Source: Candidatus Melainabacteria bacterium (GTDB lineage Bacteria; Cyanobacteriota; Vampirovibrionia; Obscuribacterales; Obscuribacteraceae). Taken from it: a DNA stretch of 40,869 bases. The stretch covers positions 1-40,869 of the forward strand of contig PSRH01000216.1 of the NCBI GenBank assembly GCA_003175915.1, given 5' to 3'. Made by a program: the position numbers and the translations under genes. Below the pieces are notes generated by a model. The model was not told the origin of the DNA, made no database searches, and saw only the letters and a program-made list of their open reading frames with translations. Of this stretch, positions 2,241 to 8,927 are shown piece after piece. Position 1 is the stretch's first letter; each line of letters starts with the position of its first letter.

Positions 2241-2342
2241 GTGCTCTTTCTGAACACAATCAATATAGGCGTATTTGCTTGGTGGCGCAGCTTGCGACGA
2301 CTGGGTGACTGTGTGCCTGGTTGGTGTTCCACGATTTCTTAG
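2241..2342 (+). CDS. trpL: trp operon leader peptide (attenuator peptide)
   Basis: GTG-started 33-codon ORF MLFLNTINIGVFAWWRSLRRLGDCVPGWCSTIS* with tandem Trp codons at 2280-2285 and a third at 2322; AAGG SD-like sequence 9 nt upstream; lies between the ABC genes and the trpE terminator. Confidence 0.75.
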   Translation: MLFLNTINIGVFAWWRSLRRLGDCVPGWCSTIS

Positions 2343-2379
2343 AGCGCTAACCATTTAAAGATCGAGCCGCAGCTTCACC
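2286..2379 (+). promoter_or_regulatory. Attenuator alternative-pairing region (segments 1, 2, 3)
   Basis: Identical CGCAGCTT at 2286-2293 (segment 1) and 2368-2375 (segment 3) compete for segment 2 GGTGACTGTG (2304-2313); 2:3 gives 10 bp with a 2-nt bulge (one G-U), which excludes the terminator stem. Confidence 0.7.
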
Positions 2380-2403
2380 ATAGGGAGGCTGCGTTTTTGT
2401 TTT
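2368..2403 (+). terminator. Rho-independent terminator / attenuator ahead of trpE
   Basis: CGCAGCTTC ... GAGGCTGCG stem (9 bp, one G-U) followed by TTTTTGTTTT; ends 10 nt before the trpE ATG. Confidence 0.9.
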
Positions 2404-2413
2404 AAAGAGAGAG

Positions 2414-3916
2414 ATGAATATGAAAGCTAAAACCAACCTGGACGGTAGCCAATTGAAAACCGGAACAACACATAGCCCTACAATATTGTCCTTTTGTTCA
2501 GACATAGGAACTCCGGTGTCTGTATTTGAGAAATTGAGTAGGAATGAAGCTCATGCTTTCTTGTTTGAAAGCACTGAAGGAGACAGCCGACTGGCGAGGT
2601 ATTCGTTTTTGGGAGTCGATCCTTGTCTGACAATTTCGTTCTTGCAAGGTGTTGCCACTGTGCGAACGCCAGACGGCAAGAGGAAAGAAGAGTCGATAAG
2701 CGACCCAATTGAATATCTTCAGCAAACTCTATTGAACTTCAGAAAGAACTTTTTTGGTGAGAATACTGATTCGTCCAGCCTCAATCACGCGGCGCTGACG
2801 CTGCCGTTTACAGGGGGCCTGGTGGGCTACCTTGGCTATGGATCGACAAAATATCTGGATAAGATCCCACAGCAAAGTAGAGATGTGCTCGGCGTTCCGG
2901 ACGGTTATTACGGCCTGTATGACTCATGCGTTGCTTTCGATCATCAATATCGGCGCGTCACGGTGATGTCGTTTCGAGGAGAAGCACACGCCCAACATCT
3001 TGTTCAGCAGATATCCGCTCCTTCGGCACTGAAGCCTTTACCCATTTTGCAAGATGTGTTGAGTGAGGCTGAGATATTCGATGAAACCGAAAGCTCGGTG
3101 AGCAAGTCGGAATTTATCAACGCGGTCGAAAGAGCTAAGGAATTTGTATTTGAGGGACAGGTTTTTCAAATCGTGCTATCGCAAAGATTCAGTACGAGGA
3201 CGACTGTAAATCCGATCGATCTATATAGGATGCTGACCGCTACGAACCCTTCGCCGTATGCATATTTCCTTAAGTGCCCTGAATTTACGTACCTCGGCTC
3301 CTCACCTGAAACTTGCGTTCAATACAGAAATGGGCAATTGTTGTTGAGGGCGCTAGCCGGCACGCGTCGTCGCGGTGCTTCTGCGCAAGAAGACGATGCA
3401 CTTGCCCAGGAATTGAAGGCGGATGAAAAGGAAATGGCAGAGCATCGAATGCTAGTCGATCTCGGTCGCAATGATTTAGGACGAGTATGTCGACCTGGAT
3501 CTATAAAGGTCGGTGAGATTGCTTCGCTGACTAGGTATACGCATGTCATGCACCTGGCCACAGAAATTACCGGGACGCTTGACGAAAGTCACACAAGCTT
3601 TGATGCCTTTCGCAGTTGCTTTCCAGCAGGCACTGTCAGCGGTGCGCCAAAGGTAAGGGCAATGCAATTGCTTTCATCATTGGAGCCTGAGAAGCGGGGA
3701 GTCTATTCCGGCGCAGTCGGCTATTTTGATTTGAATGGCAATACGGACGGGGCCATTGCCATTCGTTCCGTCCTAATTAAGGACGGTCTGGCTCATGTGA
3801 ACGCAGGTGCCGGCCTTGTCTACGATTCGAAGCCGGAGATGGAATACCAGGAAACAAGAAATAAAGCGAAGAGCGTTCTACAGGCGATCAAATTGGCCGA
3901 GAGGGCAGCACAATGA
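2414..3916 (+). CDS. trpE: Anthranilate synthase component I
   Basis: Chorismate-binding motifs: RALAGTRRRG, AEHRMLVDLGRNDLGRV, FPAGTVSGAPKVRAM, YSGAVGYFDLNGNTDGAIAIRS. Confidence 0.97.
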   Translation: MNMKAKTNLDGSQLKTGTTHSPTILSFCSDIGTPVSVFEKLSRNEAHAFLFESTEGDSRLARYSFLGVDPCLTISFLQGVATVRTPDGKRKEESISDPIEYLQQTLLNFRKNFFGENTDSSSLNHAALTLPFTGGLVGYLGYGSTKYLDKIPQQSRDVLGVPDGYYGLYDSCVAFDHQYRRVTVMSFRGEAHAQHLVQQISAPSALKPLPILQDVLSEAEIFDETESSVSKSEFINAVERAKEFVFEGQVFQIVLSQRFSTRTTVNPIDLYRMLTATNPSPYAYFLKCPEFTYLGSSPETCVQYRNGQLLLRALAGTRRRGASAQEDDALAQELKADEKEMAEHRMLVDLGRNDLGRVCRPGSIKVGEIASLTRYTHVMHLATEITGTLDESHTSFDAFRSCFPAGTVSGAPKVRAMQLLSSLEPEKRGVYSGAVGYFDLNGNTDGAIAIRSVLIKDGLAHVNAGAGLVYDSKPEMEYQETRNKAKSVLQAIKLAERAAQ

Positions 3917-4500
3917 AACTCGTGATCATAGATAATTACGACTCGTTTACTTTCAACCTTTTTCAGATGTTGCAAGTACTGGTTGATGAGAAGATCGAGG
4001 TCTTCCGGAATGACGACCTGGATTTTAGTGAGCTTAAGCGATTGCACCCTAACAAGGTTGTTCTATCACCTGGTCCGGGTCATCCCAAAAACGACTCTGA
4101 TTTTGGCGTCTGTAAGGATGTGATTGTCAAAAGTAAGGAGCTTGGCTGCTCTGTGCTGGGCGTTTGCCTCGGGCATCAGGGCATGGTGCATCACTTGGGT
4201 GGCCAGGTGGTCAGTGCTCCTCATATCGTGCATGGAAAGACAAGTAAGGTCAAAGTAGGTAAATCTCGACTGTTCGCCGGATTGCCTGAAACCTTTGAGG
4301 CAATGCGCTACCATTCCCTCGTAGCCTCTGAAGACGGTTTTCCGAAAGATCTGACGGTAACCGGCCGAGAGGTGGACCACAATTTGATCATGGCTTTGGA
4401 GCATAAGCAACTGCCGATCTTCGGAGTGCAATTTCATCCGGAGTCAATCGGCACACCAGAAGGGCAAAAAATTCTTCGGAACTTCGTCGAAAAATGTTGA
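3913..4500 (+). CDS. trpG: Anthranilate synthase component II (glutamine amidotransferase)
   Basis: IDNYDSFTFNL, LSPGPGHP, GVCLGHQ, GVQFHPES; overlaps trpE stop (ATGA). Confidence 0.96.
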   Translation: MKLVIIDNYDSFTFNLFQMLQVLVDEKIEVFRNDDLDFSELKRLHPNKVVLSPGPGHPKNDSDFGVCKDVIVKSKELGCSVLGVCLGHQGMVHHLGGQVVSAPHIVHGKTSKVKVGKSRLFAGLPETFEAMRYHSLVASEDGFPKDLTVTGREVDHNLIMALEHKQLPIFGVQFHPESIGTPEGQKILRNFVEKC

Positions 4501-5474
4501 TAACTGAAACCATCTCTCAACTTTTGAATTCGGAACTATCAACGGCGGCTGCCTGCGAGTACGTTCGGCATCTTGGTTCGGTGGATCCCACTGCGGATGT
4601 TCTCAGGGAAGCTGTCCAGATTATCGCGAAATTTGCTGATGTGGAAGCCGTTCAGGCTGTGCAAGACATACCTGGTCTAATGGATTGTTGTGGCACGGGC
4701 GGAAGCGGTCTTCCACACTTCAACACATCGACTGCGGTCGCATTCGTCCTGGCTGCAGCCGGTGTGAAGGTAGCTAAGTTCGGGAATAGATCGTCAACCA
4801 GTCTTTCCGGAAGTTTCGATTTGCTAGAAGCACTTGGGCTTCCTTGTGTCTTGCCTCCTGCCTGCTTTGCCGAGATTGTCGAGGAAACCAATTTGGCTTT
4901 CCTTTTTGTTCAGCAGTTTTATCCGGTTCTGAAAAAACTGGTACCGATCAGGCAAATCGTGGGAGCCAGAACCTTGTTCAACCTGGTCGGTCCTTTGCTC
5001 AATCCTGCGCGCCCCCAATTCAGGTTACTGGGAGTTCCTCATCGATCGGAACAGCGAGCAATTGCTAATTATCTAGAAGCAGAGAATTACTGTCGAAGAG
5101 CCTTTGTGGTTAGCTCTCAGGCAGGTTTGGATGAATTGGATCCTAAGGACGCCAGCACAGTCCTGGATGTCAAACAGGGTTCGACCCGGGAAATCACAAT
5201 AGGGCCGAATGTCAGACAAATCGGCAAGCCACTAGCAAAGCTTAGTACGGAAACAAACTTGCGCATTTTCAAAGCGATTGTGCACAACCAAATGGATGAA
5301 TTTTCTTACTATCGAGCGCTTGTATGCTTGAATGCTGGCGCCGGATTGTATATTGTCAACAAGGTACAAAGCGTGGAGGAGGGTCTGTCCAGGGCCGAAG
5401 AGCTGATTTCCTCCGGGGCTGTTTTAGACAAATTTGAGCAATGCAGGAAAGTTTATGAGCGCTACACTGGCTGA
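4494..5474 (+). CDS. trpD: Anthranilate phosphoribosyltransferase
   Basis: DCCGTGGSGLPHFNTST, KFGNRSSTSLSGSFDLLEALG, RTLFNLVGPLLNPA. Confidence 0.96.
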   Translation: MLITETISQLLNSELSTAAACEYVRHLGSVDPTADVLREAVQIIAKFADVEAVQAVQDIPGLMDCCGTGGSGLPHFNTSTAVAFVLAAAGVKVAKFGNRSSTSLSGSFDLLEALGLPCVLPPACFAEIVEETNLAFLFVQQFYPVLKKLVPIRQIVGARTLFNLVGPLLNPARPQFRLLGVPHRSEQRAIANYLEAENYCRRAFVVSSQAGLDELDPKDASTVLDVKQGSTREITIGPNVRQIGKPLAKLSTETNLRIFKAIVHNQMDEFSYYRALVCLNAGAGLYIVNKVQSVEEGLSRAEELISSGAVLDKFEQCRKVYERYTG

Positions 5475-6267
5475 AATAGTTGCACACAAGAAAGTCGAAG
5501 TTGAACGGCGGGAGCGCTTGGTTTCGATGGAAGCCCTGCACGCGCAGATCAGTCTTGCCGATGGCCGCTTCAAGACGGCGCTCGCCGGTGATCAAATACA
5601 GCTCATTTGCGAAATCAAGCCGAAATCACCATCTGCTGGGGTACTGAGAGGAGAATTGCAACTGGAGCCTTTGGTAGAAAGCTATAACAGGCATGCCAGT
5701 GCAATTTCGGTCCTGACTGATGAAAAATACTTTGGCGGTAGCATTGAATTGCTGCGTCGAGTTAGATCTCTCTCTCCACTGCCGCTTTTATGTAAGGATT
5801 TCATTATTCACCCATATCAGTGCTTTGAGGCAAGGCTTGCCGGGGCAGATGCTGTACTGCTCATTGCCAAAATACTGGACGACTATCAAATTAAGACTTT
5901 GTACGGCCAAATTGTTGGTCTTGGCATGGTGCCAGCCGTAGAGATTCAAAACGAAAGTGAATTGGAAACGGCAAAAGGCTTGGGTGCCAAGCTTGTTCTT
6001 ATCAATAACCGTAACCTGGACACCTTCAAAATCGATTTGAAAACTACACGAAGGCTAGTACCTCTGCTTCCGCCGGAAACGATCAAGGTCGCCGCCAGCG
6101 GCATTGAATCGTATGGTGACATCGACTTCTTGAAAGATACCTGTCATAACTTTCTGGTCGGCTCGTCTTTAATGAGAGCAGACGATGTTGATGCCAAGCT
6201 TCGGGAACTTAAGGGAGAAACTTGTGAAGTCGGTGGCGCGCTTTCAGCTACTGAAGGTGCACGATGA
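5455..6267 (+). CDS. trpC: Indole-3-glycerol phosphate synthase
   Basis: LICEIKPKSPSAGVLR, SVLTDEKYFGGS, LLCKDFIIHPYQ, INNRNLDTFKID; probable ATG at 5455 (maximal ORF starts 5434). Confidence 0.96.
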   Translation: MSATLAEIVAHKKVEVERRERLVSMEALHAQISLADGRFKTALAGDQIQLICEIKPKSPSAGVLRGELQLEPLVESYNRHASAISVLTDEKYFGGSIELLRRVRSLSPLPLLCKDFIIHPYQCFEARLAGADAVLLIAKILDDYQIKTLYGQIVGLGMVPAVEIQNESELETAKGLGAKLVLINNRNLDTFKIDLKTTRRLVPLLPPETIKVAASGIESYGDIDFLKDTCHNFLVGSSLMRADDVDAKLRELKGETCEVGGALSATEGAR

Positions 6268-6938
6268 GAGTCAAAGTTTGTGGCATTACCAATATTGCTG
6301 ATGCCGAGGCTGCGATCAAATGCGGTGCGGATTACATTGGACTGGTCTTTATCGAAGACACCCCCCGTTATCTCGATATTGAAAAGGCTAAGGAAATTGC
6401 TGAATTCGTAGCTAAACGCGCGCACGTGGTAGGCGTGTTCCAAGATCAGGTGGCAAGAGTCATTGAGAAAACAGCAAAGCTTGTGCCGCTAGATATGATC
6501 CAGCTTCACGGATCCGAATCACCAGAACTATGTAGCATGATCGAATTGCCGGTGATTAAGGCCCTCTCCCCACTTCTCGTAAAGGGGAAGATAAGTGAAG
6601 TCGAACAATTTGCCGCTGAAATCGAGCTATATAGATCACGCTGTCAACACATACTCATTGATAAACGAAAGACAGTTGTCGATCCGGACTGGCTAGCATT
6701 AATACTTTCGGACCTGGCTGGCATAGAGAATGTACTGGGTGAATACTTTCTGGCCGGTGGGCTAAATGAAGGGATAGTGCAGTCGGTCTCCGAGACTGTC
6801 AATCCATTTTGCCTGGATTTGTCGTCAGCAATTGAATTTAGGCCTGGAAAAAAGAACCATCAGCTGATGACCAAATTCTTCGAAACAGTGAACAGCCTTA
6901 CTACTGGTCGAGTTGCGGGGGAGGCTAACAGATGCTGA
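6264..6938 (+). CDS. trpF: Phosphoribosylanthranilate isomerase
   Basis: [46 protein letters not shown]. Confidence 0.95.
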
Positions 6939-8107
6939 CGCAAGGGAAATTCGGAGCTTATGGTGGCATTTATGTGCCTGAGACGCTGATGCCGGCTCTC
7001 GAAGAACTTGAGAGTGCATTCCTGCGCAGCAGTAAAGATCCGAATTTCTTGCGAGAGTTTCGAGATTTACTGGAGAATTATGCCGGGCGCCCAACACCTC
7101 TTTATCATGCGAAGAATCTATCGAAAGCCTGGGGTGGAAAAATATTCCTCAAGCGCGAGGATCTGCTTCATGGCGGGGCGCATAAAACCAATAATGCATT
7201 AGGACAAGGCTTGCTTGCCAAGGCAATGGGTAAAACAAGAATCATTGCTGAAACTGGAGCTGGGCAGCATGGCGTTGCTTGTGCAATGACTGGGGCTTTG
7301 CTGGGCCTGAAAACGGAGATCTACATGGGCGAGGTAGACATCGCCCGCCAGCAGCCTAATGTCTATCGCATGAAGCTCATGGGTGCTCAAGTGCATCCAG
7401 TGACGACGGGAAGCAGAACGTTGAAGGACGCGATCAATGAAGCTCTCCGGGATTGGATTACTAACTTACAAGACACCCATTACTTGCTCGGGACTGCAGC
7501 AGGTCCACATCCGTTTCCGACCCTGGTGAAATTCTTCCAGCAAGTGATCGGAGACGAGGCGCGCGAACAGATCATGGCTCTTCGCGGGTCGTTACCTGAA
7601 TACGTGGTTGCTTGCGTAGGGGGAGGCTCCAATGCGATTGGTATTTTCTCTGCGTTTCTAAACGATCAGTCTGTGCAGTTAATTGGCGTTGAGCCGGGCG
7701 GTCACGGACTTAACTCTGGCAAGCACGGTGCAGTACTTAGCAAGGGTACTCCGGGTTGTCTGCACGGAATGAAAAGCAGGGTGCTGCAAACTATGGACGG
7801 GCAAATCGAAGAGGCCCATAGTATTGCTGCCGGTCTTGATTATCCCTCTGTTGGCCCGGAGCATGCGTACTTGCAGGAGATTGGCAGAGCCAAGTATGAA
7901 TCGGCAGACGATCAAGAAGCTCTAGCTGCTTTTCAGGAATTGTCTTGTAGCGAGGGTATTATCCCTGCGCTGGAGAGTGCTCACGCGCTGGCATTTGTCA
8001 AACGGCTTTGCGCCGGAGCTTCTTCTTCACCGAATGTGCTGATTAATCTGTCTGGACGTGGAGACAAGGATTTGGCGGAGGTAATGAAACATGTCCAGAC
8101 GTTATGA
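6932..8107 (+). CDS. trpB: Tryptophan synthase beta subunit
   Basis: [56 protein letters not shown]. Confidence 0.97.
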
Positions 8108-8927
8108 AGAACGCTTCAAGCAACTAGGAAAGTTAGGGAAAAAGGCATTCATACCGTTCACGCTCTTGGGTTGGCCGAATAGAGAAGAGTCGCTCAAGAT
8201 GATCAAAGAAATGATCGAGTGTGAAGCTTCTGCACTTGAATTGGGAATTGCGTTTAGTGACCCAGTAGCTGACGGACCAGTAATTCAGAAGGCGGCCTAT
8301 GAAACCATTGCATCTGGGTTTTCCGTGCACGACGCATTTGAGCTCATAACGGAAGTGCGTAAATTAGATGGGTCCATACCGATCGGCATTCTTGTGTACT
8401 TCAATACTGTATTGGCGAAAGGGATAGGGTCGTTCTTTTCCTTGGCCAAAGAGTCAGGTGTCGATGGTATTTTGATTGCCGATTTACCAGCAGAAAACGC
8501 TCAGGAAGTTCTACCTGCCGCGGAAACCAATGGCATCGACTTGATCTTTCTTGTGTCACCAGTGACGACACCAAATAGACTGGACATAATTCTCTCACGG
8601 GCAAGTGGATTTCTGTATCTTGTCTCTCGTTTGGGTGTTACCGGTACTATGGAGCGCTCGACGGCAAAGGATCTGGAGTTGCGAGCTTTAGTGGACAAAA
8701 TACGGAAGCGGTCTCGTGTTCCAGTTTGCGCTGGTTTTGGCATTTCCAGTCAGGCTGATGCGGAAAGAATGTTCGAAATTGGAGTTGATGGTGTGATTAC
8801 TGGTTCCCGTGTCATTCAATTGGCACAATCATCTTCCTCTTGCTCATCAGGAGTCTTGAAACAATACTTCAAAGAGATGGTCGGGGCATCTGCAAGAAGC
8901 AATCGCTACGAACACTGCGACTCATAG
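8091..8927 (+). CDS. trpA: Tryptophan synthase alpha subunit
   Basis: [49 protein letters not shown]. Confidence 0.95.

Follow-up and report, generated by a model that had tools for sequence, protein, structure and literature searches.

The window analysed here, a 40,869-nt stretch of DNA constituting contig C147 of genome G000, contains seven trp genes preceded by a short ORF with tandem Trp codons and a terminator-like hairpin. Does this leader regulate the operon by attenuation, and how widely is such control used among relatives of the host? According to a 2016 survey (PMC4833913), reliable data on cyanobacterial attenuation were lacking, and we found no published report of trp attenuators in this lineage in the open-access literature. 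From sequence comparison and RNA folding models we conclude that the leader is very probably (probability about 0.93) a ribosome-mediated transcription attenuator of the trp type.

Leader elements preceding the trp operon

The genes at 2414–8927 (plus strand, as are all elements described below) were identified with Pfam as trpE, G, D, C, F, B and A; the operon is complete, in agreement with an earlier sequence-only reading of this DNA. The encoded proteins avoid Trp, with 4 Trp in 2191 residues compared to 112 in 7588. That reading had also suspected a host of cyanobacterial lineage, correctly so: the nearest named relatives by TrpE were MAGs of Obscuribacterales, 'Melainabacteria' and uncultured 'Cyanobacteria', plus one MAG titled Actinobacteria, and we therefore consider the host to be a non-photosynthetic member of the Cyanobacteriota (Obscuribacterales). 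PsaA and PsaB were absent from G000 (assembly ~65% complete) and from the relatives G039, G051, G016 and G037 (91–97% complete). A public MAG labelled Actinobacteria (L001, genome G006) groups by TrpE with the Obscuribacterales and is probably mislabelled.

The leader ORF (2241–2342, GTG to TAG, stop codon at 2340–2342) specifies the peptide MLFLNTINIGVFAWWRSLRRLGDCVPGWCSTIS and is preceded by a Shine-Dalgarno-like AAGG at 2228–2231. Tandem Trp codons are present at 2280–2285, while a third Trp codon at 2322–2324 forms part of a PGW motif common to the leaders of many relatives. The sequence CGCAGCTT occurs twice, at 2286–2293 immediately after the tandem codons (segment 1) and at 2368–2375, the start of segment 3. 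Segment 2, GGTGACTGTG (2304–2313), is the 5' half of the predicted antiterminator; it pairs with CGCAG(CT)TCACC through 10 bp, including one G-U pair and a 2-nt bulge. Its partner, segment 3 (CGCAGCTTCACC, 2368–2379), is also the 5' arm of the intrinsic terminator, and hence the 2:3 and 3:4 pairings are mutually exclusive. The terminator (2368–2403) consists of a stem at 2368–2393, with an energy of −15.9 kcal/mol, followed by a U-tract at 2394–2403; the trpE ATG is at 2414. Rereading the sequence confirmed the earlier placement of the ORF, Trp codons, AAGG, octamer repeat, 2:3 pairing and terminator. A sigma-70 promoter scan yielded no site above shuffles; the best candidate, TTGTTA-17-TCTAAT at 2171–2199, is weak, scoring 9 out of 12.

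The 163-nt leader region folds more stably than shuffled sequences (z −2.8). The 2:3 duplex of the window considered alone is no better than chance (z −0.6, p 0.28), and a shuffled region of the 700 nt scanned should by itself contain about one terminator-like site. As the window sequence is only partly beyond chance, the significance of these elements rests on comparison with relatives. The same chance frequency would fit an arrangement in which the hairpin merely terminates transcription of the upstream ABC-transporter genes, which have the same orientation and extend to 2098, and the ORF is fortuitous. We regard this explanation as highly improbable because, as described below, 28 of 29 relatives and further families have the WW-encoding ORF together with 2:3 complementarity at a fixed spacing.

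Conservation of the leader and of its alternative pairings

A trpE match was identified in 30 of the 53 genomes of the order. One locus (L092) is cut by a contig edge and was left out, leaving 29 testable Obscuribacteraceae. A leader ORF encoding WW and a terminator were present upstream of trpE in 28 of these; in each case an ORF with TGGTGG, invariant in alignment A1, was followed by a strong hairpin and U-tract. The lone exception, L089 in genome G022, has a divergent gene upstream of trpE and no leader. This genome (L199/L089) carries a full trp operon with the divergent gene abutting trpE, and seems to have lost the attenuator naturally.

A terminator/antiterminator pair by itself would also fit control by Trp-tRNA or by a Trp-binding protein or RNA, as in T-box or TRAP systems, in which the leader need not be translated. 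Two results make such control extremely doubtful: the tandem Trp codons are invariant, and in frame within a short ORF, in 28 diverged leaders, and no Rfam family, T-box included, matched the leaders. At the gathering cut-off neither the window nor its genome matched RF00513 (Trp_leader), and a relaxed threshold applied to the related leaders returned nothing relevant, neither RF00513 nor T-box. Rfam, whose trp leader models had been proposed as a check in the sequence-only reading, recognised none of the leaders.

In nearly all relatives 20–24 nt separate the first Trp codon from the start of segment 2, a distance similar to that covered by a stalled ribosome. In E. coli the distance from the Trp codons to segment 2 is about 20 nt, near the spacing found here. 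Most relatives have GGTAAGC as segment 2, within the codons for a PGK motif, and GCTTACC as segment 3, within the 5' arm of the terminator. The mean z of the 2:3 duplex was −2.0 (n = 28 leaders). Pairing between segments 2 and 3 was retained in 82% of cells over the 28 sequences, counted after manual insertion of a single-base gap into segment 3 of five of them, compared with at most 46% when the segments were slid; none of 500 whole-segment shuffles was as good as the real pairing. The retained pairing and the recurrence of the leader together support the attenuator interpretation, and the Trp-rich ORF sought upstream of trpE in close relatives is indeed conserved.

Covariation had also been suggested as a check. 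The 3:4 terminator stem showed changes on both sides at six of nine pairs. A Gly codon in segment 2 varies silently at its third base, and its non-coding partner in segment 3 changes with it, from T:A (14) to C:G (9). When mapped on the TrpE tree, the 2:3 co-changes amounted to 2–3 events per pair, too few to be significant after correction for ancestry. Other families of the phylum preserve the complementarity with different sequences, GGCCTG:CAGGCC in f3, ACAGGT:ACCTGT in f5 and CAGTGGC:GCCACTG in f15, which provides independent support for 2:3 pairing. In f5 the bases of segment 2 covary with both rival partners (column 31 with columns 23 and 107; columns 37, 101 and 127 together), the mark of mutually exclusive helices.

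The conserved peptide motif could instead mean that the leader peptide senses Trp inside the ribosome, by nascent-chain arrest of the TnaC kind mediated by PGK..PGW. PGKxxPGW is common to many relatives, and in several leaders a Trp codon immediately precedes the stop; against this, the bases with which segment 2 pairs with the terminator are those of the PGK codons, the Gly codon changes silently in step with its RNA partner, and leaders without the motif (L097, L098 and L103, which end before it) retain the RNA pairing. Nascent-chain arrest is therefore very unlikely, if marginally less so than the other two alternatives, and we favour conservation of the RNA pairing within a trp-type attenuator.

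The position of the leader stop codon beyond segment 2 had been viewed as a departure from E. coli. It is ordinary in this family: 25 of 28 leaders would be translated through segment 2, with the stop mostly 25–34 nt before the terminator, whereas the E. coli trpL stop precedes segment 2, 45 nt from the terminator. L097, L098 and L103 follow the E. coli arrangement, with the stop ahead of segment 2. Segment 1 proved to be lineage-specific; its repeat is nearly shared by one close relative only, L100.

Folding of the nascent leader and proposed mechanism

Folding with the leader masked had been proposed as a further check. At equilibrium this was uninformative, with terminator probabilities of 0.97 unmasked and 0.96 masked in the window and 0.96 and 0.94 in the E. 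coli control; the terminator was favoured in almost all states of both. As masking had no effect in either, this approach was dropped and we instead folded the nascent RNA in its state before segment 4 is made, using a thermodynamic model and not a kinetic simulation. An effect was now seen. The antiterminator probability in the window was 0.81 when a ribosome is stalled on the Trp codons, 0.32 without a ribosome and 0.36 with a ribosome at the stop codon, the at-stop figures presuming that the ribosome prevents RNA behind it from pairing with RNA ahead of it. The corresponding averages across the leaders were 0.68, 0.54 and 0.25, and the E. coli control behaved similarly (0.62, 0.03 and 0.05).

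In this calculation the antiterminator forms in many relatives even when no ribosome is present, indicating that Obscuribacteraceae do not generally have a strong 1:2 hairpin. The segment 1 pairing noted earlier is predicted to work in the window and is strong in f5 leaders, but it is not a family feature. The system shares with E. coli trpL (RF00513) the tandem Trp codons, the alternative 2:3 and 3:4 pairings and a terminator preceding trpE; it differs in its lack of a conserved strong 1:2 hairpin and of a match to RF00513, and in the stop codon position.

These features suggest the following sequence of events. The leader would be transcribed by RNA polymerase and translated by a ribosome. 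When charged Trp-tRNA is scarce, the ribosome would stall at the Trp codons at 2280–2285, leaving segment 2 (from 2304) free just ahead of it. Free segment 2 would pair with segment 3 (2368–2379) before segment 4 is made, preventing formation of the terminator and allowing transcription of trpEGDCFBA. When Trp is sufficient, the ribosome would proceed through segment 2 to the stop codon at 2340; positioned between segments 2 and 3, it would block their pairing, such that the 3:4 terminator would form and transcription would end before trpE. As the stop codon lies beyond segment 2 in 25 of 28 leaders, usually 25–34 nt from the terminator, we infer that a terminating ribosome probably acts as this block.

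Trp and His leaders in other Cyanobacteriota

Family f3 has leaders encoding WWW or WRW, followed by terminators, before trpE at all seven loci; complete trp operons are present in the three f3 loci for which a longer stretch was read. No leader preceded trpE at any of 32 loci from families f4–f8, f11 and f12 of the same class. Two f5 genomes (loci L123 and L147) have a W-rich ORF upstream of trpE, which was left uncounted because only a weak hairpin lies behind it. This W-containing ORF (...QWAWCPVK.DN) is conserved between the two loci, which belong to genus g74, and may be a diverged leader. Full trp operons in family f15, which has no PsaA, are preceded by WRWWW leaders and terminators (L161, L182, L191 and L192). 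The TrpE proteins of f1, f3, f8 and f9 form one clade, with that of f15 apart. Upstream of trpE in the 34 PsaA-bearing photosynthetic genomes sampled, no Trp leader was found.

A search model built from Obscuribacteraceae leaders alone found Trp leaders before the f3 trp operons, before aroF-trpE in f9 (L232 and L233, where the DAHP-synthase gene directly precedes trpE) and before trpS, which in one Obscuribacteraceae genome (G014) has a Trp-codon leader and terminator at L235:1060–1243. A second WW leader with a terminator (L234; G037:C1:172127–172252, minus strand) lies before an ORF that, by inspection, resembles a GNAT acetyltransferase gene.

Operons for His biosynthesis show a comparable arrangement. 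A leader with a run of His codons and a terminator preceded hisG at 24 of 28 Obscuribacterales loci, including that of the window's own genome (L332, MTLSVHYHHHYKQ; G000:C97, minus strand, about 300 nt before hisG). These resemble the hisL-type his attenuator and concern another operon, on another contig, than the trp leader. Among 20 photosynthetic hisG loci there was one weak HHH ORF. The presence of His leaders alongside Trp leaders suggests that attenuation is general in the Obscuribacterales lineage.

The model also matched leaders such as MYSQNSKNQAWWNLFKGTGVLSWR in f5, which we infer from genome size and abundance to be the gut Gastranaerophilaceae, before a gene for a ~410-aa protein that we designate X1 (for example at L236, a model match with the leader at 945–1105 and the gene at 1105–2340). 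A WW leader was present at all 30 X1 loci examined (L243–L272), mostly with a clear terminator, whereas the paralogue X2 lacked a leader at all 12 of its loci. A model of the X1 leaders gave matches in 65 genomes, nearly all adjoining X1. Not one Trp occurs among the 11,912 residues of the X1 proteins, where ~80 would be expected at the rate of their neighbours; 14 leaderless paralogues have 2–3 Trp each. X1 has 3–4 predicted membrane spans and showed no significant match to Pfam, NCBIfam, PHROGs or PDB sequences. Of ten f5 genomes with X1 that were tested, nine lack TrpA, and X1 is missing from every f5 genome that has a strong TrpE match. In an f3 genome (G086, L309, about 705–900), a WW ORF, MFIPATLQHSLCWWPCLYRPPVSR, and a hairpin with U-tract lie before a distant X-family gene.

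A protein that is encoded behind a Trp attenuator and has been purged of Trp is presumably made when Trp is missing. Tentatively, and at somewhat less than even odds, non-photosynthetic Cyanobacteriota may run a Trp-attenuation regulon comprising, depending on the family, trp operons, aroF-trpE, trpS and, in f5, whose X1-bearing members mostly lack Trp synthesis, X1 as a starvation-induced component of Trp acquisition or salvage.

Trp leader attenuators with longer peptides have been cited for other bacteria, e.g. Actinobacteria (PMC4833913). Such leaders, in Actinobacteria, Thermodesulfobacteriota and Verrucomicrobia, have the same order of a W-rich leader before trpE and then a terminator, but differ in sequence and lineage. 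We observed trpE genes preceded by W-rich leaders and terminators in several unrelated bacteria, Thermodesulfobacteriota and Verrucomicrobia among them (L021, L022, L023, L029, L032, L060 and L047). Judged from sequence, then, the mechanism is a known one, while the lineage and the targets appear to be new. The X1 leaders offer a handle on the function of an uncharacterised protein family. More broadly, these results place attenuation by Trp and His codons in non-photosynthetic branches of the Cyanobacteriota; as Trp leaders were not found in the photosynthetic genomes sampled, the origin or loss of this control may be traceable.
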